Below, piece after piece: positions 20,022 to 47,062 of a stretch of 64,000 nt of DNA. Position 1 is the stretch's first letter. Each line of letters opens with the position of its first letter. The translations under genes were made by a program, and so were the position numbers. The DNA is from Exiguobacterium acetylicum DSM 20416 (GTDB lineage: Bacteria; Bacillota; Bacilli; Exiguobacteriales; Exiguobacteriaceae), in the NCBI RefSeq assembly GCF_000702605.1, contig NZ_JNIR01000001.1:1664501-1728500 (forward strand), given 5' to 3'. The notes beneath the pieces were generated by a model. The model worked only from the letters and a program-made list of their open reading frames with translations, searched no databases and was not told the DNA's origin.

Positions 20022-20050
20022 TGGGCTAACCTAAAATTTTGAGACAATAT

Positions 20051-20104
20051 AAAACACCTTCGGAGTGGTACACTTTTAAAAAGTACTAACATCGGAGGTG
20101 TTTT
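20051..20104 (+). promoter_or_regulatory. Hairpin sequestering the IS transposase ribosome site
   Basis: AAAACACCTTC (20051-20061) can pair with GGAGGTGTTTT (20094-20104), which contains the OrfA ribosome site. The upstream arm lies in the terminal repeat, so transcripts entering from outside would fold and mask translation. Copy 2 has the same at 46980-47033. Confidence 0.5.
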
Positions 20105-20107
20105 TGC

Positions 20108-20425
20108 ATGGGCAAAAACGTATATTCAAGTGAAGTAAAATGGGCAGTAGTCAAAGATAAGTTGAGTGGTAAGTTAACGACGAGAGAAATCATGGAGAAG
20201 TACGGAATCAAAAATGAATCTCAAATCAAAACATGGATGAGATGGTATCGCTCTAACAAACATTATCGATTTGATCAGCCAATCGGTAAACAATATACCT
20301 ATGGACATGGTCCAGATTCTGCGAGTGAGGATGACAAGAGAGAACGACAAATGTCACATCTGAAGATGGAAAATGAGATCTTAAAAAAGTACATGGAAAT
20401 CGAAAGAGAGTTGAGAAAGAAGTAG
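20108..20425 (+). CDS. IS3-family transposase OrfA (copy 1)
   Basis: A 105-aa DNA-binding subunit. The helix-turn-helix is TTREIMEKYGIKNESQIKTW (residues 24-43), and a leucine-zipper-like tail (MSHLKMENEILKKYMEIERELRKK) would drive multimerisation. ATG 20108 follows CGGAGG. The slippery heptamer A-AAA-AAG at 20383-20389 lies in the correct 0-frame phase for a -1 shift into OrfB. It differs from copy 2 by at least one residue (YRSNKHYRF versus YRSNEHYRF). Confidence 0.92.
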   Translation: MGKNVYSSEVKWAVVKDKLSGKLTTREIMEKYGIKNESQIKTWMRWYRSNKHYRFDQPIGKQYTYGHGPDSASEDDKRERQMSHLKMENEILKKYMEIERELRKK

Positions 20426-20484
20426 TCATAAAAATTGTAGAGTTTCTTCGGAGAAAGTATACAATCACCGCCATTCTTAGCGCT

Positions 20485-21270
20485 TTGAATGTACCAAGAG
20501 CAAGCTATTACCGTTGGATTAAGGAATCTGTGAAAGCACCTTCGGTGCTCGAAAAAACCGTCATTGAACTAAGTAAACAGACGAAGTATCGGAATGGACA
20601 TCGAAAAATAAAGGCATTATTACAGCAAATCTATCAGTTAAAAGCCAATCGGAATACCGTACAGAAAATCATGCAAAAACACCATCTCCAATGTCGGATC
20701 AAGCCGAAGCGAAGATGGAAATCTCAAGGTGAGCGCATCATAACGGCACCGGATCTCATCAAGCGCGATTTCACAGCAAGTAAACCGAATCAAAAGTGGG
20801 TGACGGATATCACCTATATCCAATACGGCAGCACGACGAAATATCTTTCCACCATTATGGATCTTTTTAATAACGAAATCGTCGCATACAAGTTATACGA
20901 GCATCAACAAACGTCTCTTGTGATTGATACGTTGAAGATAGCGCTTGAGAATCGAAACTATCCCGAAGGGGTCATCCTTCATTCGGACCAAGGAAGTGTC
21001 TATACGTCATACGCCTTTCAAGAATTCGTTAAAAGGAATCACCTAACAAGCAGTATGTCTCGTAGAGGAAACTGTTGGGACAACGCAGTTATCGAATCGT
21101 TCCACTCTAATTTAAAGTCCGAGGAATTCCAGTACGTCAAATTTAATTCACTAAGAGACCATGAGGTCTCTGAACGCGTTACTAATTACTTAAATTACTA
21201 TAACGAAGAACGAATCCAAGAAAAATTAGGCTACCTGACACCGAAAAAATACGGTGTACAGGCAGCCTAA
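20485..21270 (+). CDS. IS3-family transposase OrfB, DDE integrase core (copy 1)
   Basis: The catalytic subunit has an HTH_21-type region, then the rve core with the DDE residues in KWVTDITYIQ (first D), LHSDQGSVYTS (second D) and VIESFHSNLKSEEF (E). The coordinates give the first ATG (261 aa). The frame is open back to the slippery site at 20383, so the active product is most likely an OrfA-OrfB fusion made by -1 frameshifting. Intact motifs suggest it is functional. Confidence 0.9.
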   Translation: MNVPRASYYRWIKESVKAPSVLEKTVIELSKQTKYRNGHRKIKALLQQIYQLKANRNTVQKIMQKHHLQCRIKPKRRWKSQGERIITAPDLIKRDFTASKPNQKWVTDITYIQYGSTTKYLSTIMDLFNNEIVAYKLYEHQQTSLVIDTLKIALENRNYPEGVILHSDQGSVYTSYAFQEFVKRNHLTSSMSRRGNCWDNAVIESFHSNLKSEEFQYVKFNSLRDHEVSERVTNYLNYYNEERIQEKLGYLTPKKYGVQAA

Positions 21271-21312
21271 TCAAGGTGTTTTATATGTGTCTCATATTGC
21301 TAGGTCAGTCTA

Positions 21313-21327
21313 CGGAAGCAGTTTTTT
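21313..21327 (+). terminator. Interrupted terminator B, part right of IS copy 1
   Basis: CGGAAGCAGTTTTTTT is one arm and T-run of a terminator. Its complement, ACTGCTTCCG, pairs with the sequence right of IS copy 2 (47063-47090) rather than with the left flank of this copy. Confidence 0.75.
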
Positions 21328-21341
21328 TGTTTGGAAATATC

Positions 21342-21366
21342 AAAAAAGACCGGAGCATTCCGATCT
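21342..21366 (-). terminator. Terminator after trpS
   Basis: On the minus strand GATCGGA pairs with TCCGGTC around ATGC and is followed by TTTTTT. Confidence 0.8.
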
Positions 21367-21380
21367 CTTTTGCGTAGAAC

Positions 21381-22660
<1,280 letters not shown>

Positions 22661-22695
22661 ACCATACGATAGAAGGCACGTCACGGTGATTTCGA

Positions 22696-23076
22696 TTAAA
22701 AGTAAGAGATGATCAGCGATACGATGATGAAGATAATACCACTAGAAACATAGGGTTTCGTTCGGGCAGAAGCCCGGTTTTGCTTTTTACGGAGGACTTC
22801 TTCCTCTTCGTCATCATCTTCGTAGTAATCGCCATCAATCTCTCGAAGCTTCGCTTCTCGTTGTTTTTTAAATCCAGCTGTCATGCCACGGAAGAAACCG
22901 TTAGCCGACATGTTGGAAAAGAATCCGATTGCCATAAGCAAAAAGCCTCCAATGAACAATCCACCAGATAGATGGTACAAAATACCGTGCGTCGAATCGG
23001 TGATAGTCGCCCATATCGTATAAAGTAAGACTAGAATGACCGCAATGATGACCGGTCGGAAATAGGTCGAGCGCAT
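22696..23076 (-). CDS. Small membrane protein (DUF3899-like)
   Basis: A 126-aa protein with two N-terminal membrane helices (PVIIAVILVLLYTIWATI; GGLFIGGFLLMAIGFFS), an acidic cytosolic loop (DYYEDDDEEEEVL) and a C-terminal helix SSGIIFIIVSLIISYF. The layout resembles DUF3899 proteins, but I give that as a tentative family. I chose ATG 23076 because AGGGGGA precedes it. It is upstream of and co-directional with trpS but separated by the T-box. Confidence 0.72.
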   Translation of the reverse strand: MRSTYFRPVIIAVILVLLYTIWATITDSTHGILYHLSGGLFIGGFLLMAIGFFSNMSANGFFRGMTAGFKKQREAKLREIDGDYYEDDDEEEEVLRKKQNRASARTKPYVSSGIIFIIVSLIISYF

Positions 23077-23185
23077 GAAAATCCCCCTTAAATGCATTGA
23101 TAATCTTAGTATACGAAATTTTTAATCCTGTTACGAATCGGTAACAAACGAATGATGCAAAATAGCAAATAGTGTGACTATTTAC

Positions 23186-23214
23186 TTGACGTTAATGCTA
23201 TTCTCACATAAAAT
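23186..23214 (+). promoter_or_regulatory. Sigma-A promoter for oppA
   Basis: TTGACG (23186-23191), a 17-bp spacer and TAAAAT (23209-23214). The transcript would have a leader of about 125 nt before oppA. Confidence 0.75.
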
Positions 23215-23347
23215 CAATTTATCACTTCGTTTAAGTTTTTGAAACTAGGTCAATGCATTTTGGGGAATACATTGCAGTTTCGACGGGACGTTATTGATGT
23301 CATAGGCATTATGGCAACTTGGAAATTGAAAAGGAGATGACTTACCG

Positions 23348-24961
23348 ATGAAGAAAAAAACAGTCGGTCTCGCATTATCAGTCATGCTTGCAGGAAGCGC
23401 AGTGCTTGCTGGATGTTCGACAGGTGGCGGAGACAGTGATTCAGGTTCAACAGACGGAAAGAAAAATCTACGTTTAACGGACACTTCTGACATCACGACA
23501 GTCGATCCAGCGAAAGCTACGGATTCTGTCGCTTTCAACATGATCGGAAATACGATGGAAGGTCTTTACCGTCTCGATAAAGACGGAAAAGCGATTCCAG
23601 CACTTGCAGAAAAAACAGATATCTCAAGTGACAACTTGACGTATACGTTCACACTTCGTGACTCGAAATGGTCAGACGGTTCACCCGTCAAAGCACAAGA
23701 TTTCGAATTTGCTTGGAAACGTGCTGCTGATCCGAAAACAGCATCTAGTTACTCGTACATCTTTGACACGTTAAAAAACGGCGCTGATGTCACACAAGGT
23801 AAAAAAGCTGTCGACGAGCTCGGTGTTAAAGCACTTGACGACAAAACGTTAGAAGTAAAACTTGAGCGTCCAGCTCCGTATTTCCTTTCACTGACATCAT
23901 TCGGTACGTACACACCGATCAGTGAAGACTTCTACAAAAAGAATGAAAAAGACTTCTCGCTTAAACCAGATAAATTACTTTATAACGGTCCTTTCGTTTG
24001 GGAATCTTGGAAAACGGATTCAAAACGTGTTCTGAAGAAAAACGATAACTACTGGGATAAAGATGCTGTCAAACTCGACGAAGTTACGATCAGTGTCGTT
24101 AAAGATAACTCAACAGTAGTAAATCTTTATGATTCAAACGATATCGATTACGCAGGTCTGACTTCAGAACAAGTTGAAGCGTACAAATCGAAACCTGAAT
24201 TCAAAACAGCGCTTCGTTCTTCGATCGCTTATTTGAAATTCAATAACGAAGATGCAACGATGAAAAATGTCGATGCACGTAAAGCGATCGCTCGTGCAAT
24301 CGATCCAAAAGGAATTACGGATACGCTTCTTGCGAACGGTTCGATTCCAACAACAAGCTTCATTCCAAAAGAATTCATCAAAGATGCGTCTGGTAAAGAC
24401 TACACAAGTGACATCAACTGGTTCGATCGTGATGGAAAAGAAGCAGCAGATCTTTGGAAAAAAGCAAACGGCGATAAAAAGACGACGATTGAACTTCTTT
24501 CATTCGACAATGAGGATGCGAAGAAGATCAGTGAGTACATGAAAGGTCAAATCGAGAAAAATCTTCCGAACGTTACTGTTTCAATCAAACAACAACCGTT
24601 CAAGAACAAACTCGACCTTGAATCAAAAGGCGACTACCAACTTTCTTACTCACTTTGGGGTCCAGATTATCAAGATCCAATGTCTAACCTGTCAATCTTC
24701 GAATCAACAAATAGCCAAAACGACGTCAAATATAAGTCTGCAGCCTATGATAAATTGTTGAACGCAGCGAATGAAGAGTCTGATTTAACCAAACGTCTCG
24801 ATCTCTTCAAACAAGCGGAAGCACAATTGATTGAGAAAGATCAAGCAATCGCGCCAATCTATCAAGCTGGTTCTGCATACTTGAGCCGTCCGACGGTCAA
24901 AGATTTCAACCGTCAAGTATTCGGAGCAGATTTCCAATACAAATACGTTGATATTAAGTAA
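23348..24961 (+). CDS. oppA: Oligopeptide ABC transporter substrate-binding lipoprotein
   Basis: OppA captures peptides outside the cell for the OppBCDF importer. The 537-aa product has a lipoprotein signal ending LAGC (C22) followed by a Gly/Ser linker. The SBP_bac_5 fold contains the family blocks NTMEGLYRLDKDG, YTFTLRDSKWSDGSPVKAQDFEFAWKR (broken here as YTFTLRDSKW / SDGSPVKAQDFEFAW), LYNGPFVWESW and WGPDYQDPMS. It heads the opp operon; an imperfect terminator after it probably reduces expression of the downstream genes. Two paralogues lie at 47094 and 48941. Confidence 0.95.
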   Translation: MKKKTVGLALSVMLAGSAVLAGCSTGGGDSDSGSTDGKKNLRLTDTSDITTVDPAKATDSVAFNMIGNTMEGLYRLDKDGKAIPALAEKTDISSDNLTYTFTLRDSKWSDGSPVKAQDFEFAWKRAADPKTASSYSYIFDTLKNGADVTQGKKAVDELGVKALDDKTLEVKLERPAPYFLSLTSFGTYTPISEDFYKKNEKDFSLKPDKLLYNGPFVWESWKTDSKRVLKKNDNYWDKDAVKLDEVTISVVKDNSTVVNLYDSNDIDYAGLTSEQVEAYKSKPEFKTALRSSIAYLKFNNEDATMKNVDARKAIARAIDPKGITDTLLANGSIPTTSFIPKEFIKDASGKDYTSDINWFDRDGKEAADLWKKANGDKKTTIELLSFDNEDAKKISEYMKGQIEKNLPNVTVSIKQQPFKNKLDLESKGDYQLSYSLWGPDYQDPMSNLSIFESTNSQNDVKYKSAAYDKLLNAANEESDLTKRLDLFKQAEAQLIEKDQAIAPIYQAGSAYLSRPTVKDFNRQVFGADFQYKYVDIK

Positions 24962-24969
24962 TCGAGAAT

Positions 24970-25008
24970 GGGAGCGTCCCCTGATCAGTTCGGGTACGCT
25001 CCTGTTTT
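24970..25008 (+). terminator. Terminator between oppA and oppB
   Basis: GGAGCGTCCCC pairs with GGGTACGCTCC with one mismatch, followed by TGTTTTAT. Partial readthrough would give more OppA than OppBCDF, as is usual for such operons. Confidence 0.7.
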
Positions 25009-25072
25009 ATACTACTTTTTATGAATGGAAACTCATTTTTAGCGAAAATGTGAAAGTTTCGTAAAAAAGTAG

Positions 25073-25101
25073 TTCTAATTACTTTGTTAGCAAAGTATAA
25101 T
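25073..25101 (+). promoter_or_regulatory. Second promoter before oppB with an overlapping palindrome
   Basis: TTCTAA (25073-25078), a 17-bp spacer and TATAAT (25096-25101). The perfect inverted repeat TACTTTG-TTAG-CAAAGTA (25080-25097) fills the spacer and enters the -10, where a repressor would block it. I cannot name the regulator. The 24962-25295 gap holds the oppA terminator, this promoter and the oppB leader only. Confidence 0.5.
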
Positions 25102-25295
25102 GGAATCAAACGAAAAATTCTGACTATTGGATGAAATTAGAAAAACATCCAAGCGAACATCAAATCAAAGCACAATAAAAAAAGAATTTTTAAATTTTTA
25201 TGACAAAATTCTTGAATGTTCCGACAATTGTGGGTCATACTGATTTTATTGATGTTTCGAAAAAAACAGAAAATCTTTATAGGGGGTGCCATCTT

Positions 25296-26222
25296 ATGGG
25301 CCGTTATTTAGCTCAACGCCTGGTTTACGGCGTACTGACGTTTTTACTCATCGCTTCGTTCACTTTCTTCCTGATGGATCTGCTACCAGGTTCACCGTTC
25401 CAAAACCAGGAGAAACTTTCTCCTGAACAGTTGAATATCCTTCGGGATAAGTACAACTTGAATGATCCACTGCCACAACGCTATGCAGCGTATATGGTCA
25501 ACTTGTTCCAAGGAGATCTCGGTATTTCATTCAAATATGATAGCCGTCCGGTAACGGATTTGATTTCTGAACGAATTGGACCATCGGCTCAATTAGGAGT
25601 TCAAGCACTAGTACTCGGAGTATTATTAGGACTCGTCTTAGGTGTTGTCGCAGCGCTTCGCCACAACACAGTGATCGATTACGGTGCGATGTTCGTATCG
25701 GTTATCGGAATCTCGGTACCGTCATTCGTATTCGCCTCACTCCTTCAATACTACGTTGGCGTGAAATGGGGCGTTTTGCCAGTCGCGTTCTGGGAAAGCC
25801 CGGCGCATACCATCTTGCCGACCATATCGTTATCACTTGGGGTCACAGCCTCAATTGCTCGATTCGTCCGGACAGAGATGCTAGAAGTTACGAACCAGGA
25901 TTATGTCACGTTAGCTAAAGCAAAAGGCCTAGATGGTCAGTCGATTACTTGGAAACACATGGTTCGGAACGCCTTGATTCCGGCGATCACGATTCTTGGA
26001 CCAATGACAGCTGCATTGATTACAGGAACACTCGTCATTGAGCGGATTTTCTCTGTACCTGGTCTTGGTGAACTCTTCGTATCATCAATCACACAAAATG
26101 ACTACACAGTCATCATGGGTACGACGTTGTTCTTCTCAGCAGTCTTCATTCTCATGATTTTGATCGTCGATTTGCTGTACGGTGTCGTTGATCCACGGAT
26201 CCGTTTGGGGGGTAACAAATAA
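25296..26222 (+). CDS. oppB: Oligopeptide ABC transporter permease OppB
   Basis: A 308-aa membrane permease with six helices, opening MGRYLAQRLVYGVLTFLLIA, then the periplasmic DKYNLNDPLPQRYAAYM stretch and the EAA loop near LAKAKGLDGQSITWKHMVRN that contacts the ATPases. I chose ATG 25296 because AGGGGGT lies just upstream; a longer frame from 25200 has no such site. It overlaps oppC in TAATG. Confidence 0.94.
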   Translation: MGRYLAQRLVYGVLTFLLIASFTFFLMDLLPGSPFQNQEKLSPEQLNILRDKYNLNDPLPQRYAAYMVNLFQGDLGISFKYDSRPVTDLISERIGPSAQLGVQALVLGVLLGLVLGVVAALRHNTVIDYGAMFVSVIGISVPSFVFASLLQYYVGVKWGVLPVAFWESPAHTILPTISLSLGVTASIARFVRTEMLEVTNQDYVTLAKAKGLDGQSITWKHMVRNALIPAITILGPMTAALITGTLVIERIFSVPGLGELFVSSITQNDYTVIMGTTLFFSAVFILMILIVDLLYGVVDPRIRLGGNK

Positions 26223-27253
26223 TGGCTGAACAAAATTCAAATGCAAAAGCAGAACAGTTTGATTCATCGCTGTTCCAACACGTTGAGTTCAATGAACAAG
26301 CAGGGGAACGCCTTGCTGGTAAAAGCTTAAACTTTTGGCAAGATGCTTGGATGCGTCTACGCAAGAACAAAGCTGCGATTCTCTCACTTGCTGTCATCAT
26401 CATCATCGCGATCATGTCATTGGTCGGACCTGCGTTGTCTGGTAACGACCCTTATACCCAAACAATCACGCAAGCTAAACTTCCACCTAAAGTTACTGGT
26501 TTAGAGTGGGCTGGTTTTGACGGTATGGCGACACTTGGTGATACGCCGATTGATTTTTATAAACAAAAACAGGTGACGGAGAACTTCTGGTTCGGAACGG
26601 ACCACCTTGGTCGTGATCTTTGGTCACGTGTTTGGGAAGGAACGAAGATTTCGCTATTCATCGGTTTGATGGCAGCACTCATCGACGTTCTCGTTGGTGT
26701 CACATACGGCGGGATTTCTGCTTACTACGGTGGGCGTGTCGATAACATCATGCAACGGATTGCTGAAATTTTAACAGGTGTACCAAACTTAATCTTGATC
26801 ATCTTGTTCATCTTGATTCTTGAACCAGGGATCACGACGATCATCCTTGCGATGACGATTACCGGCTGGATTGGGATGAGCCGACTTGTTCGTGGTCAAA
26901 TCCTGAAACTAAAGAACCAAGAATTCGTTCTTGCAGCACGGACACTTGGTGCTTCTAGCGCACGATTGATCTTTAAACACTTGATTCCAAATACCTTGGG
27001 AACGATCATCATCTCACTTATGTTCACGATTCCAAGTGCGATCTTCTTCGAAGCGTTCTTAAGCTTCATCGGTTTAGGACTTGCACCACCACAACCGTCA
27101 CTCGGTACATTGATCAACGAAGGGTACAAAGAACTCAAAACGTTCCCATTCTTGCTCGTTGTCCCATCGACGGTCATCGTACTCCTCATGGTCAGCTTCA
27201 ATATGTTGGCAGATGGACTGCGTGATGCGTTCGACCCACGTTTACGACGCTAA
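26222..27253 (+). CDS. oppC: Oligopeptide ABC transporter permease OppC
   Basis: A 343-aa second permease with an N-terminal cytosolic extension (about 1-55, containing FWQDAWMRLRKNKAAILS of the OppC_N domain), six helices and the EAA loop LAARTLGASSARLIFKHLIPN. It has an extra periplasmic region after helix 1 (TGLEWAGFDGMATLGDTPID). The start codon overlaps the oppB stop, which indicates coupled translation. Confidence 0.94.
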   Translation: MAEQNSNAKAEQFDSSLFQHVEFNEQAGERLAGKSLNFWQDAWMRLRKNKAAILSLAVIIIIAIMSLVGPALSGNDPYTQTITQAKLPPKVTGLEWAGFDGMATLGDTPIDFYKQKQVTENFWFGTDHLGRDLWSRVWEGTKISLFIGLMAALIDVLVGVTYGGISAYYGGRVDNIMQRIAEILTGVPNLILIILFILILEPGITTIILAMTITGWIGMSRLVRGQILKLKNQEFVLAARTLGASSARLIFKHLIPNTLGTIIISLMFTIPSAIFFEAFLSFIGLGLAPPQPSLGTLINEGYKELKTFPFLLVVPSTVIVLLMVSFNMLADGLRDAFDPRLRR

Positions 27254-27280
27254 CGGAAACTAGAGAGGAGCTCATTCACA

Positions 27281-28354
27281 ATGGAAACTATTTTATCTGT
27301 TCGCGACCTGAATGTCGCTTTCCATACGTATGCCGGGACGGTACAAGCCGTCCGCGGTGTATCGTTTGATTTGAAAAAAGGCGAGACACTCGCAATCGTT
27401 GGTGAGTCTGGTTCTGGTAAATCGGTTACTTCAAAAGCAATCATGCGTTTGATTCCAAACCCACCAGGTGAAATCACACAAGGTGAAATCTTATTTGAAG
27501 GTCGTGACCTCGTTAAGCTTTCGGATAAAGAAATGCAAAAAGTCCGCGGTCGTGATATCGCAATGATTTTCCAAGACCCGATGACATCACTTAACCCGAC
27601 AATGACGATTTATAAACAAATCGCTGAAGGATTAAAACGTCACCAAGGCTTAACAGGCGACGCAGCGAAAAAGCGTACACTCGAACTTTTGACACTCGTA
27701 GGAATTCCGAATCCAGAAGCGCGTCTGAAACAATATCCGCACCAATTATCGGGTGGGATGCGTCAACGGATCGTCATCGCAATCGCACTTGCATGTAATC
27801 CGAAAGTGTTGATTGCCGATGAGCCGACGACTGCACTCGATGTTACGATTCAAGCTCAGATCCTTGAGTTATTGAAAGACATTCAGCAAAAAACGGGTAC
27901 AGCAATCATCTTTATTACGCACGACTTAGGTGTCGTAGCGAACATGGCTGACCGTGTAGCCGTCATGTATGCTGGTAAATTGATTGAAAAAGGTACAGTA
28001 GATGAGATCTTCTATGAGCCGCGTCATCCATATACTTGGGGACTACTAGGTTCAATGCCACGTCCATCGGATGACCGTTCACAAGATCTTCCTGCGATTC
28101 CAGGAACTCCACCGAACTTGATGCATCCACCAGTCGGTGATGCGTTTGCACCGCGTAACAAATACGCGATGAAGATTGATTTCGAGAAAGAACCACCTTT
28201 CTTCAAAATCTCAGATACACATGAAGCGGCGACGTGGTTGCTACATCCACAAGCTCCATATGTCGAACCACCCGCTGCAATCCGTGACTTGGCGTTAAAA
28301 TACCGTCCGGACAGCGTGTTCTCAAAATCGCTTCTGAAAGGCGGTCTGAAATAA
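27281..28354 (+). CDS. oppD: Oligopeptide ABC transporter ATPase OppD
   Basis: A 357-aa cytosolic ATPase. Walker A is GESGSGKS (residues 41-48), then FQDPMTSLNPTMT (Q-loop), the signature LSGGMRQR and Walker B VLIADEPTTALD, with the switch His in ITHDLG. The C-terminal oligopeptide extension HPYTWGLLGSMPR is present. It overlaps oppF by TAATG. Confidence 0.95.
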   Translation: METILSVRDLNVAFHTYAGTVQAVRGVSFDLKKGETLAIVGESGSGKSVTSKAIMRLIPNPPGEITQGEILFEGRDLVKLSDKEMQKVRGRDIAMIFQDPMTSLNPTMTIYKQIAEGLKRHQGLTGDAAKKRTLELLTLVGIPNPEARLKQYPHQLSGGMRQRIVIAIALACNPKVLIADEPTTALDVTIQAQILELLKDIQQKTGTAIIFITHDLGVVANMADRVAVMYAGKLIEKGTVDEIFYEPRHPYTWGLLGSMPRPSDDRSQDLPAIPGTPPNLMHPPVGDAFAPRNKYAMKIDFEKEPPFFKISDTHEAATWLLHPQAPYVEPPAAIRDLALKYRPDSVFSKSLLKGGLK

Positions 28355-37828: not shown

Positions 37829-37922
37829 CCGTTCACCCCTTCCTGTTGTTATCGTTACCCTATTTTAGCAACGAAAAAAAAGAAAGAGCAAAGGTTTTGC
37901 TTGTTCATTCTTACACGAAAAA

Positions 37923-38503: not shown

Positions 38504-38599
38504 GCCTTTCTAGTTGAATGTCTGAAAATATGATAACATGAATGAGGTAGGAACAGGCACCGAACCAATACTATTCGATTAAAAGTGGTGACAAATCAG

Positions 38600-39245: not shown

Positions 39246-39255
39246 GGGGATGACC

Positions 39256-40059
39256 ATGCGTTTTGCAATCACGGCTCGTGATGATGAGCGATCTCATGCG
39301 CTGAAACAGCAACTCGAGCAGGCATTGACGGATCGAGGATGTATTCTTGATGTCAGCCAGCCGGAAATCGTCGTCTCGATCGGTGGAGACGGAACGATGT
39401 TACAGGCGTTTCATTCGTATCTCGATCAAGTAGAGACGATCACGCTTGTTGGGATTCATACGGGGCATCTTGGTTTTTATGCGGATTGGCGCCCTGAAGA
39501 AATGGATGAACTGATTGATCATATCGCGAAGCAGGATTTGGCGACGGTTCAATACCCATTGCTTGAACTCTCGATTGATTATGCGGATGGTTCACACAAC
39601 CAACTGCTTGCCTTGAATGAATGTACGATTAAAAGTTTTAATCAGACGCTCGTTTGCGATTTATCGATTCGAGGCGACTACTTCGAGACATTCCGAGGGG
39701 ACGGGTTGTGTGTATCGACACCGTCTGGTTCGACAGCTTACAATAAGGCACTCGGCGGAGCGATCGTTCACCCGGCGCTCGAAGCAATTCAAATTACAGA
39801 GATGGCTTCCATCAACAATCGTGTCTACCGGACGATCGGCTCACCGATGTTGCTACCGAAACATCATGATGTCGAAATTCGTCCCGTCAATCCGATTGAT
39901 TTTCAGATGACCTATGACCACTATGCTTCGATCATTCATCAAAACGTGACATCGATTCGGTGCCGGGTCTCTGATAAAAAAGTGAAATTTGCTCGTTTTC
40001 GTTCTTTCCCGTTCTGGCAACGGGTGCGGGAATCTTTCCTGGCAGACGAAAGACGTTAA
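39256..40059 (+). CDS. nadK: NAD kinase
   Basis: NAD kinase makes NADP+ from NAD+ and ATP. The 267-aa product has the GGDG motif at residues 43-46 (VVSIGGDGTMLQAF), the NE motif LALNECTIKS and CVSTPSGSTAYNKALGG. I chose ATG 39256 because AGGGGG lies 6 nt upstream; the ATG at 39250 abuts it. It follows relQ by a few bases and precedes the pseudouridine synthase, the same order as yjbM-ppnK-yjbO in B. subtilis. Confidence 0.95.
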   Translation: MRFAITARDDERSHALKQQLEQALTDRGCILDVSQPEIVVSIGGDGTMLQAFHSYLDQVETITLVGIHTGHLGFYADWRPEEMDELIDHIAKQDLATVQYPLLELSIDYADGSHNQLLALNECTIKSFNQTLVCDLSIRGDYFETFRGDGLCVSTPSGSTAYNKALGGAIVHPALEAIQITEMASINNRVYRTIGSPMLLPKHHDVEIRPVNPIDFQMTYDHYASIIHQNVTSIRCRVSDKKVKFARFRSFPFWQRVRESFLADERR

Positions 40060-40077
40060 AGTAAAGGAAATGGAAAC

Positions 40078-40962
40078 ATGAATGGATTTCAGCTACAACA
40101 GATGGTGACTGACATCGAGAATGGCTGGCGTGTCAGTCATTTTTGTACGACCCGCTTAGGAATTTCACGAAAAATGTTAGTATCGATTAAAAATCATGGG
40201 GATATCACGCGTAATGGTCAGCATGTTAACGTCCACGACGTCTTACACGCGGGTGATCATGTCCATATCTTCTTCCCGGAAGAGACACCAGCACCGGATA
40301 TGGTGGCGACAGAAGGGGAACTTGATATTTTGTTTGAAGACGATTGGTTACTCGTCGTCAATAAACCGCCAGGCATGGCATCGATCCCGTCACGATTGCA
40401 TCCAGAACGCTCATTATCGAACTATGTCCTTGGTTATTACCGAAAACAAGGAATTCCGTATGCGATCCATATCGTTAATCGGCTCGATCGTGATACGAGT
40501 GGTCTTGTCTTGTTCGCGAAACATGGGCTTGCCCATCACCGGATGAGTCTTATGCAACGATCCAATGAATTAGAACGACATTATTTAGCGTATGCACCCG
40601 GAAACGTACCGGTACAAACGATTGATCAACCGATTGGTCAAACCGATCATTCTTTCATGGAACGGATGGTACGACCAGATGGTCAACGAGCCATTACGCA
40701 TATCTTAAATAGCCGTCTAGTTCGAGCCTTTGACCAAGAAATCTCATTACTCGATATCCGACTAGAGACGGGTCGGACACACCAAATTCGTGTCCACCTT
40801 GCTTTTCTTGGGCATCCTTTGATTGGCGATACGATGTATCAAGGAAACCCGTTGCTGCCGCGTCAGGCGCTCCATAGTGCGTCAGCAACGTTCCTTCATC
40901 CTGCGACGGGAGAACGGGTTCGTTTTGAAGCACCACTTCCTGAGGATCTCCGACTGGAATGA
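40078..40962 (+). CDS. RluA/RluD-family RNA pseudouridine synthase
   Basis: A 294-aa pseudouridine synthase acting on rRNA or tRNA uridines. An S4-like N-terminal region (ISRKMLVSIKNHGDITRNGQ) precedes the catalytic domain with VVNKPPGM and HIVNRLDRDTSGLVLFAK, whose Asp is the nucleophile, then ETGRTHQIRVHLAFLGHPLIGD. It corresponds to B. subtilis YjbO. The exact target base is unknown. It is in the relQ-nadK operon. Confidence 0.92.
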   Translation: MNGFQLQQMVTDIENGWRVSHFCTTRLGISRKMLVSIKNHGDITRNGQHVNVHDVLHAGDHVHIFFPEETPAPDMVATEGELDILFEDDWLLVVNKPPGMASIPSRLHPERSLSNYVLGYYRKQGIPYAIHIVNRLDRDTSGLVLFAKHGLAHHRMSLMQRSNELERHYLAYAPGNVPVQTIDQPIGQTDHSFMERMVRPDGQRAITHILNSRLVRAFDQEISLLDIRLETGRTHQIRVHLAFLGHPLIGDTMYQGNPLLPRQALHSASATFLHPATGERVRFEAPLPEDLRLE

Positions 40963-40968
40963 TGAAGT

Positions 40969-41015
40969 ACACAAATAAAAGGCAATGGACTTGGTCCACT
41001 GCCTTTTATTTGTGT
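40969..41015. terminator. Bidirectional terminator after the pseudouridine synthase gene
   Basis: ACACAAATAAAAGGCAATGGAC pairs with GTCCACTGCCTTTTATTTGTGT (one mismatch) around TTG. It abuts the stop of the convergent SEDS gene. Confidence 0.85.
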
Positions 41016-42185
41016 TTAGTCCTCATCGAACATGGAAATCCGAGATTGAGAGGCGATTGCCATGATCAATCCTAGACCGACGAGGTTTACGATCATCGTT
41101 GATCCACCATAACTGATGAACGGTAAGGGAAGACCTGTGATCGGTAAGACACCAATCGTCATCCCGATGTTTTGGAAAATCTGGAACGTAAACATCGCGA
41201 CGTATCCTGTCACGATATAGGTGCCAAATGGATCCGCCGTTTCAAGTGCAATTTGAATCAAGCGATAGACGAACAGGAACAAGACGATCAAGACGATGGC
41301 AGCTCCAATGAAACCGTAGTGTGAGGCAATCGTCGTAAAGATGAAGTCTGTATGCAATTCTGGAACAAACACTTGCAGTTTCCCGTATCCAACGCCGAAC
41401 ATTTGCCCTGAACCTGTAGCGTTGATTGCTTGGACGAGCTGGTACGACAGATCATCCGCATATTCGAATGGTTGCAACCAAGCCATGATCCGGTTCATCG
41501 CGTGACCCGGGAAAAAGGTGGCGAGTAAATCGTTCTGGAAAAAGAACAGATAAAAGAAGATGATGACGGCGCCTGCAAACAGACCGAACATTGTCAAAAG
41601 CCATTTCCAATTTAGTCCTGATAATAACATCGCACATGCCAAGATGACGCAGAGAATCAAACCAATCCCTAAATCGGGCTGAATGATGATGAGACCGAGC
41701 GGCAAGGCTGTAACCGCGACTAACTTGATAAGTAACAAGAGATCTCTTTCATGTTGAACATAACGCGCATTGTGCTCGGTAATAACGGCAGCGAGCGTCA
41801 CGATCAAAAAGAACTTCATGAACTCAGCCGGTTGGACCGTACCGATAACGGGGAATTGATACCAACCGTATGCCCCTTTGATTTCAGTGACGATTGGTGT
41901 ACCACGGAAAATGACAAGACCGATCAATGACACGATACCTGCTCCATATAAAAACCAGTGGAATCGCTTCAACTGTTCATAATCGATGAAAATGACGACG
42001 GATAACGCCATGAAGCCGATGACATACCATTGAATTTGTTTGGCAGAGAAGTTGATGGCACTGATCGCACCTTTAAGCGAAGGTTGTGCTGTATAGATGG
42101 CGATGATACTGATGACCATCAGACAGGCGAGTAAAAAAAGCAACGTATGATCATAACGTTGTGTAAATGATTTGAATCGATTCAT
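41016..42185 (-). CDS. RodA/FtsW-type SEDS peptidoglycan glycosyltransferase
   Basis: A 389-aa membrane protein with about 10 helices. SEDS proteins polymerise peptidoglycan from lipid II together with a class B PBP. Family blocks include FQPAEFMKF (here VQPAEFMKFFLIVTLAA), VPELHTDFIFTTIASHYGFIG, with the Asp that is catalytic in RodA, and PLPFISYGGSTMIVNLVGLGL. I chose ATG 42185 because AGGGA precedes it; the 42206 GTG frame is less likely. It resembles RodA more than FtsW, but no division or elongation gene is adjacent to decide. Confidence 0.88.
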   Translation of the reverse strand: MNRFKSFTQRYDHTLLFLLACLMVISIIAIYTAQPSLKGAISAINFSAKQIQWYVIGFMALSVVIFIDYEQLKRFHWFLYGAGIVSLIGLVIFRGTPIVTEIKGAYGWYQFPVIGTVQPAEFMKFFLIVTLAAVITEHNARYVQHERDLLLLIKLVAVTALPLGLIIIQPDLGIGLILCVILACAMLLSGLNWKWLLTMFGLFAGAVIIFFYLFFFQNDLLATFFPGHAMNRIMAWLQPFEYADDLSYQLVQAINATGSGQMFGVGYGKLQVFVPELHTDFIFTTIASHYGFIGAAIVLIVLFLFVYRLIQIALETADPFGTYIVTGYVAMFTFQIFQNIGMTIGVLPITGLPLPFISYGGSTMIVNLVGLGLIMAIASQSRISMFDED

Positions 42186-42254
42186 TTCATCCCTACTTTC
42201 TATCACTTTCTATATTACCGTAATTTATCAAATCCGCAATATCAAGAGCGATGG

Positions 42255-42283
42255 TTGACAGAAGCGTTACGTTTTTGTAACCT
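42255..42283 (+). promoter_or_regulatory. Candidate promoter for fabI
   Basis: TTGACA (42255-42260), a 17-bp spacer and TAACCT (42278-42283). The -10 is weak but the -35 is perfect, and the FapR-type site begins 11 bp after it. Confidence 0.5.
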
Positions 42284-42293
42284 GAAGATAGGT

Positions 42294-42312
42294 TTTATTA
42301 CCAGGTACTAAT
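42294..42312 (+). promoter_or_regulatory. FapR-type operator upstream of fabI
   Basis: TTTATTA-CCAGG-TACTAAT has a perfect right half and 5 of 7 matches in the left half of the FapR palindrome. It lies 17 bp upstream of the fabI ATG. FapR controls fabI in B. subtilis. Confidence 0.7.
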
Positions 42313-42329
42313 TCAAGGGGGACTCTATC

Positions 42330-43103
42330 ATGAATATTTATCCTTCACTCGAAGGCAAGACGTACGTCGTCATGGGCGTCATCAACCAACGTTCGATTGC
42401 ATGGGGTATCGCACGTGCGCTCGACGCTGCTGGAGCAAGCCTGGCATTTACATATGTCGGGGAACGTTTTAAAGCACCACTTGAAAAATTAGGGCAAGAA
42501 TTATCACGTCCGGCTTCTTATTATACGTGTGATGTCACAAGTGATGAAGAAATCGAACAGGTCTTCCAAACAATCCATGCGGATCACGGTAAGATTTCAG
42601 GAATCGCTCACTCGATCGCATTCGCGGACAAAGAAGCGCTTCGTGGTGAATTCTCTGGAGTAACGCGTGAACAGTTTGCGCAAGCACTTGATATCTCAGC
42701 CTACAGCTTAACAGCAGTCGTCAAGGCGGCGAAGGATTTCTTTACGGAAGATGCATCCGTCATCACGTTGACGTACCTTGGTGGTGAGAAGATGGTTCCG
42801 AACTACAACGTCATGGGTGTTGCGAAAGCCGCATTAGATGCAAGCGTTCGTTATCTCGCTGCTGAATATGGTCAGCAAGGCGTTCGTGTCAATGCCATCT
42901 CAGCTGGTCCAATTCGGACAGTATCAGCAAAAGGTGTCGGCGACTTCAATTCGATTCTTGATAGCATCGAAGAACGTGCGCCACTTCATCGTAACGTCAC
43001 GACAGAACAAATTGGTCAAAGTGGACTGTTCTTGCTTTCACAAATGTCGAGTGGGGTGACAGGAGAAATCCTTCACGTTGATAGCGGATTCCACATTCTT
43101 TAA
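42330..43103 (+). CDS. fabI: Enoyl-ACP reductase FabI
   Basis: FabI reduces trans-2-enoyl-ACP with NAD(P)H in the last step of fatty-acid elongation. The 257-aa product has the GVINQRSIAWGIARAL cofactor loop (residues 17-32), SIAFADKEALRGEF and YNVMGVAKAALDASV, the YxxxxxxK pair, with the late segment AGPIRTVSAKGV. It is the target class of triclosan. The upstream FapR-type site suggests co-regulation with fabHF at 50.6-52.8 kb. Confidence 0.96.
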   Translation: MNIYPSLEGKTYVVMGVINQRSIAWGIARALDAAGASLAFTYVGERFKAPLEKLGQELSRPASYYTCDVTSDEEIEQVFQTIHADHGKISGIAHSIAFADKEALRGEFSGVTREQFAQALDISAYSLTAVVKAAKDFFTEDASVITLTYLGGEKMVPNYNVMGVAKAALDASVRYLAAEYGQQGVRVNAISAGPIRTVSAKGVGDFNSILDSIEERAPLHRNVTTEQIGQSGLFLLSQMSSGVTGEILHVDSGFHIL

Positions 43104-43119
43104 TAAAAGATCGATTAAG

Positions 43120-43153
43120 CCAGGCTTTCCTAAGTGGGAGGCTTGGTTTTTTT
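43120..43153 (+). terminator. Terminator after fabI
   Basis: CCAGGCTTTCC pairs with GGGAGGCTTGG with three G-U pairs around TAAGT, followed by TTTTTTT. Confidence 0.75.
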
Positions 43154-43212
43154 GTGCTGGATCGGGGAAGTATCAAATATGAACATGTTGAAGGAGAGAG
43201 GAAGTGTAATGG

Positions 43213-43431
43213 ATGAATGCAATCGATTTTACAGTCGTGCAATATGTGAACCGTCAAGTACGTGTCGATCCACAACTAAAGACTGAGCCAGTCGCTCGGA
43301 TTCAACCAATTCGCCCAATCGATGCTTATCGTGAACATGAAACTGACGATTTTTTAGAAGAACAAGCAAATGCATACGGTGTATTACCAGAACTAAAACT
43401 TCCCGGTCGAAGCTTCGACCGGGAAGTTTAA
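43213..43431 (+). CDS. Hypothetical protein, 72 aa
   Basis: I do not recognise this protein. It begins MNAIDFTVVQYVNRQVRVDP and ends LKLPGRSFDREV. The last twelve residues are encoded by a 34-bp palindrome that also works as a hairpin. GAGAGGAAG precedes ATG 43213. It is soluble with a mixed beta/alpha appearance and is convergent with the yjcG gene. Confidence 0.6.
   Translation: MNAIDFTVVQYVNRQVRVDPQLKTEPVARIQPIRPIDAYREHETDDFLEEQANAYGVLPELKLPGRSFDREV
43396..43429. repeat. Perfect 34-bp palindrome inside the end of a coding frame
   Basis: AAACTTCCCGGTCGAAG and its exact complement meet without a loop at GAAGCTTC. It spans the last codons of the 72-aa gene and the TAA, and lies 7 bp from the yjcG stop, so it probably acts as a bidirectional terminator. 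It also makes the opposite strand an open frame, which I consider a shadow. Confidence 0.8.
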
Positions 43432-43435
43432 TCAT

Positions 43436-43948
43436 TCATTGACCTGAGAAGCGGAATGTCTCATAGACACTCCAAGCACCGTTTTCCAGTTCATACAATA
43501 AAGCCATTTTCGTAACGTCCTCTTGGAAACGAATATCTTCCATCTTGAGACGTTCTAACACGTCGAACAGTTCGACATCCGACAGTTCTTGACCAATCGT
43601 GATATGTGGCAAGAAATCGTATTTCGGCTTATGTTCGAGTGGCCCTGTATGCAAAGCGCGATGTAATTGTTCTAACTCATCCGTTGGCATTACTTTAAGG
43701 AACAAGACATTGTTCGTCGGATGGAACGAACGAGCTCCTTGAATGTGCAAATTGACAGGCTTCGTTTCGGACGCGATTCGATTCAACTCCGTCACGATGT
43801 GGTCTAATTCTGTCTCATCGACTTCCATCCGCTCCCGTAGCGTGATATGAGGTGTGATCAGTGCATACTTCGAGTCATATCTCTTTCGGTATGAATTTGC
43901 AAAATCTTGAACGCGTTTCGATGGAAACAATACAACCCCGATGTTCAT
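43436..43948 (-). CDS. yjcG: 2H phosphoesterase / 2'-5' RNA ligase family protein YjcG
   Basis: A 170-aa cytoplasmic protein of the 2H phosphoesterase superfamily. The two HxT/H motifs are TPHITLRERM and LPHITIGQELS, and YELENGAWSVYETF near the end matches B. subtilis YjcG. It hydrolyses or ligates cyclic or 2'-5' phosphates in relatives, and the substrate here is unknown. ATG 43948 follows AGGGGA. Confidence 0.9.
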   Translation of the reverse strand: MNIGVVLFPSKRVQDFANSYRKRYDSKYALITPHITLRERMEVDETELDHIVTELNRIASETKPVNLHIQGARSFHPTNNVLFLKVMPTDELEQLHRALHTGPLEHKPKYDFLPHITIGQELSDVELFDVLERLKMEDIRFQEDVTKMALLYELENGAWSVYETFRFSGQ

Positions 43949-44029
43949 CGAAAATCCCCTACTTTCCCCTGAAATGATAACGCTTTACAAAATAATCATG
44001 ACGGATTCTGGCGTCGATGTCAAAGAAGT

Positions 44030-44059
44030 TTGAGAGGAGGTTCAGAATCCGTGTATACT
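44030..44059 (+). promoter_or_regulatory. Promoter for the lipid-phosphatase cluster
   Basis: TTGAGA (44030-44035), an 18-bp spacer and TATACT (44054-44059). Transcription would start near 44066, so translation from the ATG at 44061 is unlikely. Confidence 0.65.
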
Positions 44060-44093
44060 AATGAAGTACTTTGTTGGAGAGGTGGATATAGTC

Positions 44094-44636
44094 ATGAAGA
44101 AAACACATTCAAAAGAAGTCAAACAGGCAGCTATCGATAAGTTACATGAACGAGGGGTAACGATTCATGCGATTGCTGAAATCGTGTACCAGATGCAGGC
44201 CCCATACACGGTAGATCTGACAATTGAAACATGTGTCAGTTCAGTAGAACGTGTTCTTGAAAAACGTGAATTACAACATGCGATTCTCGTCGGAGCAGAA
44301 CTAGACATCTTGGCGGAAAAAGGGTTATTATCAGAACCCCTCCTGTCCATCATCCAAAGCGATGAAGGGCTATTTGGCGTAGATGAGACGATTGCGATTG
44401 GCGCCGTCAACACGTATGGTTCGATTGCGGTTACGACGTTCGGCTATTTGGATAAAGCAAAGGTCGGTATCATCAAAGAACTCGATACGAAGCTTGGGGA
44501 TGGAAAAGTCAATACGTTCATGGATGATATCGTCGCGGCCATCGCAGCAAACGCGTCCGGACGACTAGCGCATCGCTTGCGGGATAAAGAAGACTACTCA
44601 GCAGAAGAATTAGAAGAACGTAAGGGGACATACTAA
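44094..44636 (+). CDS. pgpA: Phosphatidylglycerophosphatase A-like protein (YutG)
   Basis: The 180-aa product matches the YutG/PgpA family, which in PgpA dephosphorylates phosphatidylglycerophosphate. It starts MKKTHSKEVK and contains HERGVTIHAIAEIVYQMQ, ILVGAELDILAEKGLL, DEGLFGVDETIAIGAVNTYGS and FMDDIVAAIAANASGRLAHR (family blocks). It lacks obvious membrane helices. I chose ATG 44094 because GGTGG precedes it at 9 nt and the promoter start lies after 44061. Its stop overlaps the PAP2 start (TAATG). Confidence 0.88.
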   Translation: MKKTHSKEVKQAAIDKLHERGVTIHAIAEIVYQMQAPYTVDLTIETCVSSVERVLEKRELQHAILVGAELDILAEKGLLSEPLLSIIQSDEGLFGVDETIAIGAVNTYGSIAVTTFGYLDKAKVGIIKELDTKLGDGKVNTFMDDIVAAIAANASGRLAHRLRDKEDYSAEELEERKGTY

Positions 44637-45256
44637 TGCGGGGTGCGAGAGCGGCATGGACAGGTGCGTCTATTGCTGTCGTCTTGTTCGTGATCATCGC
44701 TGTCTCGATTCGAATGACAGGCTATTTCTTATTTGATGCCCAATTATCATCATACATGTCGCAACATGTTCCTGGGGATTACGTTTCTTGGTTCACTCAA
44801 CTCGGATCAGGTCCAGGAGCGATGACGATGACAGCGTTACTTGGCATACTGAGTTATGTCTTGTGGCGAGATCGTATCGCAAGCATCTGGTATGTGCTCA
44901 TGGCAATATCGGTAGGGGTGTTGAATCAAGTCGTTAAATTCGCTTTTGTTCGAGAGCGACCTTCATTAAACGAACTGGTTGGCGGCGTAGGATACAGTTT
45001 TCCGAGCGGTCATTCTGCGATGGCATTTGCTGTCTATGCTGGATTTCTCGTTGTTGCGTTTCATCATCTAAAAACAGGTGGGAAAGTACTTGTATCGATC
45101 GTGACGATTGGATTATTCCTCGCCATGGGAGCTTCTCGAATCATTTTAAACGTTCACTATTTCTCAGATGTCATCGGTGGGTATTGTTTTGCCGGAATTC
45201 TTTTATGTAGCTCCTATGCATTCATCGTCTCCCGTAGAAAAAAAGGAGTGGCTTGA
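44636..45256 (+). CDS. PAP2-family phosphatase
   Basis: A 206-aa membrane phosphatase of the PAP2/PgpB family. The three catalytic motifs are KFAFVRERP (K...RP), SFPSGHS (PSGH) and SRIILNVHYFSDVIGG (SR...H..D). About six helices are visible. It dephosphorylates lipid phosphates such as undecaprenyl diphosphate or phosphatidylglycerophosphate. Overlap with pgpA on one side and the HAD gene on the other marks an operon of lipid-related phosphatases. Confidence 0.9.
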   Translation: MRGARAAWTGASIAVVLFVIIAVSIRMTGYFLFDAQLSSYMSQHVPGDYVSWFTQLGSGPGAMTMTALLGILSYVLWRDRIASIWYVLMAISVGVLNQVVKFAFVRERPSLNELVGGVGYSFPSGHSAMAFAVYAGFLVVAFHHLKTGGKVLVSIVTIGLFLAMGASRIILNVHYFSDVIGGYCFAGILLCSSYAFIVSRRKKGVA

Positions 45257-45753
45257 TGTTACTGTTAGATGTTGATCACAGTTTGTTATTTGATGAAGAG
45301 ACGATGCGCTCCATCAACAAGCCGACGTTGCTTGTCGAGCGAGTCGCTGGGCGACCTCGTTTCATGACGATGCGAGCGCATCTTAGATTAAAACGGTTAG
45401 TATCGATTAACGGTGTTGTTCCGGTGACGAAACGAACGATGGAAGAGTACCAGCAGTTGGAACTCTTTCAAATCGATGCGCCACCTAAGTGGGCGATCAT
45501 TGACGGTGGAAAGATTTTGCTCAAAGAAGGAAAAGTGGATCGTCGATATGAAAATTGGCTTCGTCAATTCAATAAGGAGACATCACTTAATTCCATTCTT
45601 GAGTATCTCATCGAAATGGAACAAGTTTCAATCGATGTATATCCTTCTGAGACGTTATCCAGTGTAATCACGCTGCCGCATGAACCGATTCAACGGACGA
45701 CGGACGAAGCGGTATTACTAGAAGAACTATTTCGTAAGTATGAAACGACATGA
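45256..45753 (+). CDS. Short HAD-like protein
   Basis: A 165-aa protein opening MLLLDVDHSLLFDEE, which resembles HAD motif I (DxD). No clear motif III/IV (lysine, GDxxxD) follows. The rest (KPTLLVERVAGRPRFMTM, VVPVTKRTMEEYQQL) suits a HAD cap or a degenerate fold. It ends at a proper stop before the remains of terminator A, so the IS did not truncate it. Its start overlaps the PAP2 stop in TGATG. The role is unknown. Confidence 0.65.
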   Translation: MLLLDVDHSLLFDEETMRSINKPTLLVERVAGRPRFMTMRAHLRLKRLVSINGVVPVTKRTMEEYQQLELFQIDAPPKWAIIDGGKILLKEGKVDRRYENWLRQFNKETSLNSILEYLIEMEQVSIDVYPSETLSSVITLPHEPIQRTTDEAVLLEELFRKYETT

Positions 45754-45766
45754 AAAAACCGGACGG
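45754..45766. terminator. Interrupted terminator A, part left of IS copy 2
   Basis: AAAAAACCGGACGG is the complement of the CCGTCCGG-T-run end of the degV terminator. An extra TAGAC (45767-45771) then separates it from the IS end. Confidence 0.75.
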
Positions 45767-45813
45767 TAGACTAGACTGACCTAGCAATATGAGACACATA
45801 TAAAACACCTTGA

Positions 45814-46599
45814 TTAGGCTGCCTGTACACCGTATTTTTTCGGTGTCAGGTAGCCTAATTTTTCTTGGATTCGTTCTTCGTTATAGTAATTTAAGTAATT
45901 AGTAACGCGTTCAGAGACCTCATGGTCTCTTAGTGAATTAAATTTGACGTACTGGAATTCCTCGGACTTTAAATTAGAGTGGAACGATTCGATAACTGCG
46001 TTGTCCCAACAGTTTCCTCTACGAGACATACTGCTTGTTAGGTGATTCCTTTTAACGAATTCTTGAAAGGCGTATGACGTATAGACACTTCCTTGGTCCG
46101 AATGAAGGATGACCCCTTCGGGATAGTTTCGATTCTCAAGCGCTATCTTCAACGTATCAATCACAAGAGACGTTTGTTGATGCTCGTATAACTTGTATGC
46201 GACGATTTCGTTATTAAAAAGATCCATGATGATGGAAAGATATTTCGTCGTGCTGCCGTATTGGATATAGGTGATATCCGTCACCCACTTTTGATTCGGT
46301 TTACTTGCTGTGAAATCGCGCTTGATGAGATCCGGTGCCGTTATGATGCGCTCACCTTGAGACTTCCATCTTCGCTTCGGCTTGATCCGACATTGGAGAT
46401 GGTGTTTTTGCATGATTTTCTGTACGGTATTCCGATTGGCTTTTAACTGATAGATTTGCTGTAATAATGCCTTTATTTTTCGATGTCCATTCCGATACTT
46501 GGTCTGTTTACTTAGTTCAATGACGGTTTTTTCGAGCACCGAAGGTGCTTTCACAGATTCCTTAATCCAACGGTAATAGCTTGCTCTTGGTACATTCAA
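45814..46599 (-). CDS. IS3-family transposase OrfB, DDE core (copy 2)
   Basis: 261 aa from the first ATG, with the same DDE blocks as copy 1 (KWVTDITYIQ, LHSDQGSVYTS, VIESFHSNLKSEEF). One residue differs (KYLSIIMDL versus KYLSTIMDL). The frame is open back to the slippery site at 46701-46695. Confidence 0.9.
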   Translation of the reverse strand: MNVPRASYYRWIKESVKAPSVLEKTVIELSKQTKYRNGHRKIKALLQQIYQLKANRNTVQKIMQKHHLQCRIKPKRRWKSQGERIITAPDLIKRDFTASKPNQKWVTDITYIQYGSTTKYLSIIMDLFNNEIVAYKLYEHQQTSLVIDTLKIALENRNYPEGVILHSDQGSVYTSYAFQEFVKRNHLTSSMSRRGNCWDNAVIESFHSNLKSEEFQYVKFNSLRDHEVSERVTNYLNYYNEERIQEKLGYLTPKKYGVQAA

Positions 46600-46658
46600 A
46601 GCGCTAAGAATGGCGGTGATTGTATACTTTCTCCGAAGAAACTCTACAATTTTTATGA

Positions 46659-46976
46659 CTACTTCTTTCTCAACTCTCTTTCGATTTCCATGTACTTTTT
46701 TAAGATCTCATTTTCCATCTTCAGATGTGACATTTGTCGTTCTCTCTTGTCATCCTCACTCGCAGAATCTGGACCATGTCCATAGGTATATTGTTTACCG
46801 ATTGGCTGATCAAATCGATAATGTTCGTTAGAGCGATACCATCTCATCCATGTTTTGATTTGAGATTCATTTTTGATTCCGTACTTCTCCATGATTTCTC
46901 TCGTCGTTAACTTACCACTCAGCTTATCTTTGACTACTGCCCATTTCACTTCACTTGAATATACGTTTTTGCCCAT
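46659..46976 (-). CDS. IS3-family transposase OrfA (copy 2)
   Basis: 105 aa, as in copy 1 except E for K in YRSNEHYRF. The A-AAA-AAG slippery heptamer is at 46701-46695, in phase for a -1 shift into OrfB. Confidence 0.92.
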   Translation of the reverse strand: MGKNVYSSEVKWAVVKDKLSGKLTTREIMEKYGIKNESQIKTWMRWYRSNEHYRFDQPIGKQYTYGHGPDSASEDDKRERQMSHLKMENEILKKYMEIERELRKK

Positions 46977-47062
46977 GCAAAAACACCTCCGATGTTAGTA
47001 CTTTTTAAAAGTGTACCACTCCGAAGGTGTTTTATATTGTCTCAAAATTTTAGGTTAGCCCA

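Follow-up and report, generated by a model that had tools for sequence, protein, structure and literature searches.

Recombination between two oppositely oriented copies of an insertion sequence (IS) is a known mechanism with a known product, the inversion of the DNA between them. Elements that insert into palindromic DNA have also been described. IS1397 and ISKpn1, found in enterobacterial palindromic units (PUs), and ISPsy8, found in the repetitive extragenic palindromic (REP) sequences of Pseudomonas syringae with 3-bp duplications at the symmetry axis of the predicted hairpin, all belong to the IS3 family (PMC1525189). IS1272/TnSha1, a member of the IS1182 family in staphylococci, takes hairpins as targets without primary sequence specificity, five of seven being terminators confirmed by RNA-seq, and leaves a blunt deletion of the stem-loop with no target duplication (PMC4923244). 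Here we describe a 64,000-nucleotide stretch of Exiguobacterium acetylicum DSM 20416 (the window, from contig NZ_JNIR01000001.1), in which a block of about 24.5 kb lies inverted between two opposed copies of an IS3-family element, and the two copies stand inside intrinsic terminators whose halves have been exchanged. Like the three REP/PU elements, it is an IS3-family element in palindromic DNA. The parts of this arrangement are the following.

20022–21312, + strand: IS copy 1, IS3 family, 1,291 bp, ends TGGGCTAACC...GGTCAGTCTA
45772–47062, − strand: IS copy 2, canonical 1,291 bp
21313–45766: inverted block, 24.45 kb, trpS to ORF166
20000–20021, + strand: terminator part A, CCGGACGGTCT-CAAAC-AGACCG, the 5' arm, loop and start of the 3' arm, ending in the target duplication CCG
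45753–45766, − strand: terminator part C, AAAAAACCGGACGG, the remainder of the 3' arm and the T-run (on the − strand), partner of A
21313–21328, + strand: terminator part B, CGGAAGCAG followed by T7, partner of D
47063–47091, + strand: terminator part D, TCCGAATTAAATCGGAAGCAG followed by T8
45767–45771: five extra bases, TAGAC, between copy 2 and its target duplication, a repeat of the IS end

Joining parts A and C rebuilds an 11-bp stem with the target duplication CCG, while joining B and D rebuilds a 10-bp stem with the target duplication TCCG/CGGA. When the flanks of the ten full IS copies in this 3.28-Mb genome were paired all against all, the exchanged window pairs scored 20 and 23, and the pairs as they now stand 9 and no hit. 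In the third contig of the genome, a 1.5-kb piece matches an E. acetylicum plasmid at 99.9% identity. At the empty sites of the nearest relatives both terminators are intact, with the exception of an insertion between trpS and oppA in the genome G016. The first-pass annotation had proposed, from the mismatched halves at each IS, that swapping partners restores two terminators with these stems and the duplications CCG and TCCG, and both the flank pairing and the intact sites of the relatives bear this out. Its left flank of copy 2 was right in sequence but begins at 45753 rather than 45754 (the end, 45766, stands), and its layout at that copy, sound as to the flank pairing, overlooked the TAGAC that precedes the canonical IS end. 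It also missed that terminators are where this IS usually inserts.

The genes beside the two breakpoints were then compared with all 18 same-genus genomes from the search, each of which has ORF166 and trpS; these Exiguobacterium relatives take the place of the B. subtilis order that the annotation had cited.

19035–19976, + strand: degV-family gene, neighbour of ORF166 in the relatives
45253–45753, + strand: ORF166, no Pfam or NCBIfam match, convergent with degV in the relatives
21381–22382, − strand: trpS, convergent with the oppA at 47094 in the relatives
47094–48737, − strand: gene for an oppA-type substrate-binding protein (SBP_bac_5)

The degV gene is adjacent and convergent to ORF166 in 18/18 genomes; trpS and oppA are convergent and directly adjoining in 16/18, and are separated by another IS in the remaining two (an IS1182-family element in G016 and an IS30-family element in G004). 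The present order occurs in 0/18 same-genus genomes, and no match longer than 100 bp to our IS was found in the loci read in the relatives (1.5 kb either side). The span from trpS to ORF166 is 24.37 kb here and 24.36–24.39 kb in those 17 relatives in which the two genes share a contig. Concomitantly, the GC skew is −0.067 in the left flank, +0.035 in the block and −0.074 in the right flank, and it is negative in all nine 20-kb stretches sampled between 1.28 and 2.58 Mb. The inversion of 24.5 kb between two opposed IS3 copies that had been proposed from the sequence thus holds on three counts: the un-inverted neighbours in 18/18 relatives, the opposite skew of the block and the exchanged flanks. 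Relatives lacking the IS but showing the present order had been named as the finding that would speak against it, and all 18 have the un-inverted neighbours. The opposed copies, the un-inverted relatives without the IS and the exchanged flanks seen here are what an IS-mediated inversion by homologous recombination presents. The gap between trpS and oppA has received three IS families across these genomes: our IS here, the IS1182-family element in G016 (L036/L168) and the IS30-family element in G004 (L038/L169).

We propose that two IS3-family copies inserted in opposite orientations into the terminators between degV and ORF166 and between trpS and oppA, 24.5 kb apart, each insertion giving a target duplication of 3–4 bp. 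A RecA-type homologous recombination between the copies, with a crossover probably within IS nucleotides 562–700, would then have inverted the block and left each copy flanked by one half of each terminator. The halves can be read at the junctions since most insertions of this IS clade fall inside intrinsic terminators. We put the probability of this reading, that is, two terminator insertions, inversion by crossover and a terminator-preferring IS clade, at roughly 0.8. Mechanism and product are those of ordinary inversions between opposed IS copies, and a 24-kb inversion is by itself ordinary; what differs here is that the junctions keep a palindromic record of which flanks were partners.

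The preference for terminators was scored with a fixed hairpin criterion: the junction had to fall within a hairpin whose stem is 7 or longer, with three or more G-C pairs, a T- or A-run and a score of at least 11. By this measure 14/17 Exiguobacterium sites lie in terminator hairpins (ten sites from this genome, of which eight qualify, four from G016 and three from G003), against 56 out of 3,000 positions drawn at random from this genome. A tandem pair in G003 (L161), an element with two left ends in Leaf196 (L053) and all fragments were left unscored. In other Firmicutes, 74 loci with relatives of the transposase (L084–L157) were collected; both ends were found in 57, 15 had flanks too short, and 29 of the resulting 42 scorable loci lie in hairpins, nearly all of them in other genera (L132, the same Leaf196 element as L053, is an Exiguobacterium locus counted among the 42). 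Pooling the two sets, after dropping L101 and L102 for their doubtful left ends and re-pairing an exchanged pair from Metabacillus, gives 57 sites, 45 of which are in hairpins (41/53 when the four sites paired by complementarity are set aside), against 353/20,000 background positions. It tells against the comparison that the background was drawn solely from this genome, while 40 of the 57 sites come, directly or after re-pairing, from genomes of other genera.

When the 57 sites are aligned, positions −29 to −24 form an A-tract and positions +10 to +19 a T-tract; no strong base preference is seen elsewhere. The cut is also placed unevenly. Relative to the loop centre and in the orientation of the IS, 11 of the 14 Exiguobacterium hairpin sites are cut on the 3' side, three within 1.5 nt of the centre and none on the 5' side; for the other 29 hairpin loci the corresponding numbers are 19, eight (near the centre) and two. 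Typically, the IS would enter on the 3' side, some 6 nt from the loop centre, and point its right end toward the T-run. Where both tracts are present, hairpins are found in 40/46 sites and in 42/194 background positions. A rule of A-to-T spacing without a hairpin was considered and is disfavoured by these last counts, yet six of the 12 sites outside hairpins carry both tracts, against 0.8% of background positions. One of the six, L119, abuts a 466-codon reading frame that resembles an ABC transporter (named by eye). The tracts thus seem to matter by themselves, and surviving sites cannot separate their effect from that of the hairpin. We infer that DNA composed of A-tract, hairpin and T-tract is what the transposase recognises.

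The targeting of hairpins is known from other elements, and that of our IS is a variant of it with several differences. The targets of IS1397, ISKpn1 and ISPsy8 are repeated REP or PU sequences (PMC1525189), whereas ours are unrelated terminators that share an A-tract, a hairpin and a T-tract; an IS of the REP/PU-specific type was rejected on the same ground, as no repeated target sequence is seen and the 57 sites show A- and T-tracts alone. IS1272 belongs to another family (PMC4923244), and where our IS inserts the whole hairpin is kept, duplications of 3–4 bp are made and one orientation is strongly preferred. A replacement of the hairpin as by IS1272 was likewise rejected, since the joined flanks rebuild the hairpin found empty in relatives and duplications are present. 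Class C group II introns are also addressed to terminators, but they are retroelements that insert downstream of the stem-loop (PMC3522654). IS1447 represents a Firmicutes IS3 group for which the excerpts of its description report no terminator targeting (PMC6211511). No description of IS3 elements targeting intrinsic terminators was found in the open-licence literature, which is weak evidence of novelty, subscription papers falling mostly outside its scope.

The coding regions and ends of the IS are as follows.

20108–20425, + strand: orfA of copy 1, helix-turn-helix (HTH), with a slippery-type motif TTAAAAAAG close to its 3' end
20485–21270, + strand: orfB of copy 1, rve/DDE transposase
46659–46976, − strand: orfA of copy 2
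45814–46599, − strand: orfB of copy 2
20051–20104, + strand: inward terminator-like hairpin of the left end, just 5' of orfA, z −5.1 by folding
21224–21272, − strand: inward terminator-like hairpin of the right end, overlapping the 3' end of orfB, z −9.2 by folding

The element is a member of the IS3 family: orfB reaches 271 bits against the family model NF033516 (cut-off 160), with an rve E-value of 2.6e-26, and orfA alone reaches 35 bits. The two frames are offset by 2 and the A-rich motif is present, an arrangement consistent with a predicted −1 frameshift from orfA into orfB. Beside the 5'-TG...CA-3' ends of the IS3 family, the left end begins with TG, and the right end is TA here and CA in some relatives, for example in Metabacillus halosaccharovorans. 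A target duplication of 3 or 4 bp, within the 3–5 bp of the IS3 family, is seen at 14/17 Exiguobacterium sites, two of them scored after the window flanks had been re-paired and the five extra bases set aside. An inward hairpin with a T-run is present at 40/41 right ends and 33/34 left ends of distinct relatives, raw counts that lack a shuffled control, and the hairpin sequences vary among relatives (e.g. AAAACACC/GGTGTTTT and AAAAGCACC/GGTGCTTTT). A generic terminator scan with loops of 3–8 found neither hairpin in our IS, while folding found both. These hairpins likely keep outside transcription from reaching the transposase genes, and they likely also stop transcripts whose host terminator was broken by the insertion. 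The most general form of the proposal, that an IS3 clade spread over many Firmicutes genera addresses the intrinsic terminator (a palindrome bounded by an A-tract and a T-tract some 30 bp from each other), inserts in one orientation and brings replacement inward terminators, has in our view about an even chance of being right.

As controls, two further IS families of the genus were scored by the same criterion, with both ends found in 19/19 loci of an IS1182-family element and in 20 of 21 loci of an IS30-family element. The junction was inside a hairpin in 1/19 and 1/20 cases, respectively, and each family has its own tract signature. The inside-hairpin signature therefore belongs to our IS3 element. 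The IS1182-family element (19 full copies in G016, L226–L246) stands between an A-tract and a T-tract with the hairpin gone; in all five copies with an orthologous empty site (L033, L183, L179, L188 and window positions 10104–10158) the hairpin is lost, some 28–32 bp being missing and more at the window site. This replacement fits the behaviour published for IS1272 (PMC4923244). The IS30-family element (L256–L285 in G004, G016 and G007) displays the opposite signature, a T-tract on the left at −12 to −6 and an A-tract on the right at +5 to +11, and a terminator ends no more than 45 bases from the left junction in 5/20 cases and from the right junction in 4/20, one site having both, hence 8/20 in total.

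Several of these observations weigh against the reading given above. Both control families sit at or near terminators, so that terminators are attractive to, or tolerant of, several IS families, each in a different way. Twelve of the 57 sites are outside hairpins by our criterion, among them the Exiguobacterium sites L003, L005 and L162, and L005 (G000:C1:523392–524682) interrupts a spo0A-like gene of this genome, with the receiver domain on one side and Spo0A_C on the other. The target counts describe surviving insertions. The hairpin counts at the IS ends are raw, and since the right-end hairpin overlaps orfB, some of its conservation may stem from the protein. Finally, the TAGAC at copy 2 is absent at the corresponding sites of relatives and is without a firm explanation. 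We also observed what is possibly one extra base at the same place in the G016 copy L067.

The first alternative drawn from these points is that selection alone accounts for the pattern: insertions at gene ends survive, and terminators happen to be there. Only insertions that survived were counted, convergent genes flank both window breakpoints, and the IS1182-family and, in part, the IS30-family elements of the genus are also at or beside terminators; selection must indeed be part of the picture. As the sole explanation it is nevertheless rather unlikely, because the three families each have their own hairpin position and tract signature, with an inside-hairpin junction in so few sites of the other two, because cut position and orientation are strongly biased within the hairpin, and because half of the sites outside hairpins retain both tracts, L119 even while abutting a long reading frame.

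A second alternative is that the genome is un-inverted and that wrong flanks were connected over the two IS copies during assembly. Such a join would yield the identical exchange of flanks, the same change in skew and a chimeric IS sequence, and the orientation is known from one assembly only. On the other side, a single 3.16-Mb contig resolves the ten full IS copies together with five full 16S genes (26 of 39 candidate stretches being scored in the 16S search), and two of the 16S genes are separated by about 5.6 kb. Such resolution suggests long reads. Six of the other eight IS copies in the genome match their own flank best, L003 and L005 being uninformative. A wrong join at the window copies is thus unlikely.

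Flank pairing was extended to eight genomes with 2–10 copies each, 35 copies in total. Their own other flank is the best match, with a score of at least 11, for 25/35 copies, while 4/35 are reciprocally exchanged: the window pair and the copies L105 and L106 of Metabacillus halosaccharovorans DSM 25387, whose exchanged flanks score 28 and 17 and own flanks 10 and no hit. An own pairing of at least 11 is absent in 6/35 copies (L003, L005, L113, L116, L119 and L124). Single off-diagonal scores of up to 19 arise by chance, none of them reciprocal and above the own pairings. The exchange in Metabacillus makes two predictions of gene order, for which 20 relatives were searched and 14 read in each case: a MATE gene stands beside bshB2 in 12/14 (in the exceptions one locus is cut short and the other carries cdaS where the MATE gene would stand), and a DCC1-like gene stands beside an ORF of 187 aa in 14/14. 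This gene order speaks for a rearrangement, or else a scaffold join, over a distance of about 2 Mb; since the sequence is a draft scaffold, a join made in assembly is a real alternative there. Other arrangements of the IS were seen in the genus. The Leaf196 relative (L053/L132) ends in left-type sequence on either side (TGGGCTAACC...AGGTTAGCCCA) and apparently sits in the same terminator as the G016 copy L067, a few bases apart, and L161 of G003 (C6:206627–209165) consists of two abutting head-to-tail copies, the first truncated at its right end.

As for the way in which the block was inverted, the two window copies are 99.5% identical and differ at seven positions, and they were compared within 13 full-length copies, nine from this genome and four from G016, with L008, shorter by one base, excluded. 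Both 562C and 700A are present in L002, while copy 2 has only 562C, copy 1 only 700A and the remaining copies neither; moreover, copy 1 shares 116A with the group L003–L005 and copy 2 shares 831T with L048. One reciprocal exchange between positions 562 and 700 would explain the alleles of the window copies at these positions. Two alleles make this account less simple: 835T of copy 1 is also found in L007 and L049, and 1033T, present in both window copies and in none of the other 11, needs a later conversion, common descent or a repeat mutation. Alternatively, a single IS could have transposed replicatively, in one step and within the same molecule, into the second terminator. This would also give an inversion with a copy at each end and the same distribution of target duplications, and would account for the shared 1033T, but it is very unlikely given that the copies differ at seven positions and share alleles with different other copies. 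To our knowledge, the usual copy-out-paste-in route of IS3 elements gives no such inversions, which counts further against it. The mixed alleles and the seven differences point to two older, separate copies that recombined, and one-step transposition is ranked below the crossover.

In the window, two T-box leaders (Rfam RF00230) were also noted, at 22434–22639 (− strand), upstream of trpS, and at 60773–60983 (− strand).

Altogether, an IS clade that settles in terminators while carrying terminator-like hairpins of its own would have a low-cost way of life. It would represent a new mode beside the REP-specific IS and IS1272, namely insertion that duplicates the target, is oriented and is spaced by tracts. 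If this is true, the palindromic record of each insertion shows which flanks were partners and exposes later recombination between copies. In practice, palindromic flanks allow a single genome to be screened, with no reference at hand, for misassembly or earlier recombination at this IS; both exchanged pairs found by flank pairing, in the window and in Metabacillus halosaccharovorans, agree with the gene order of relatives.

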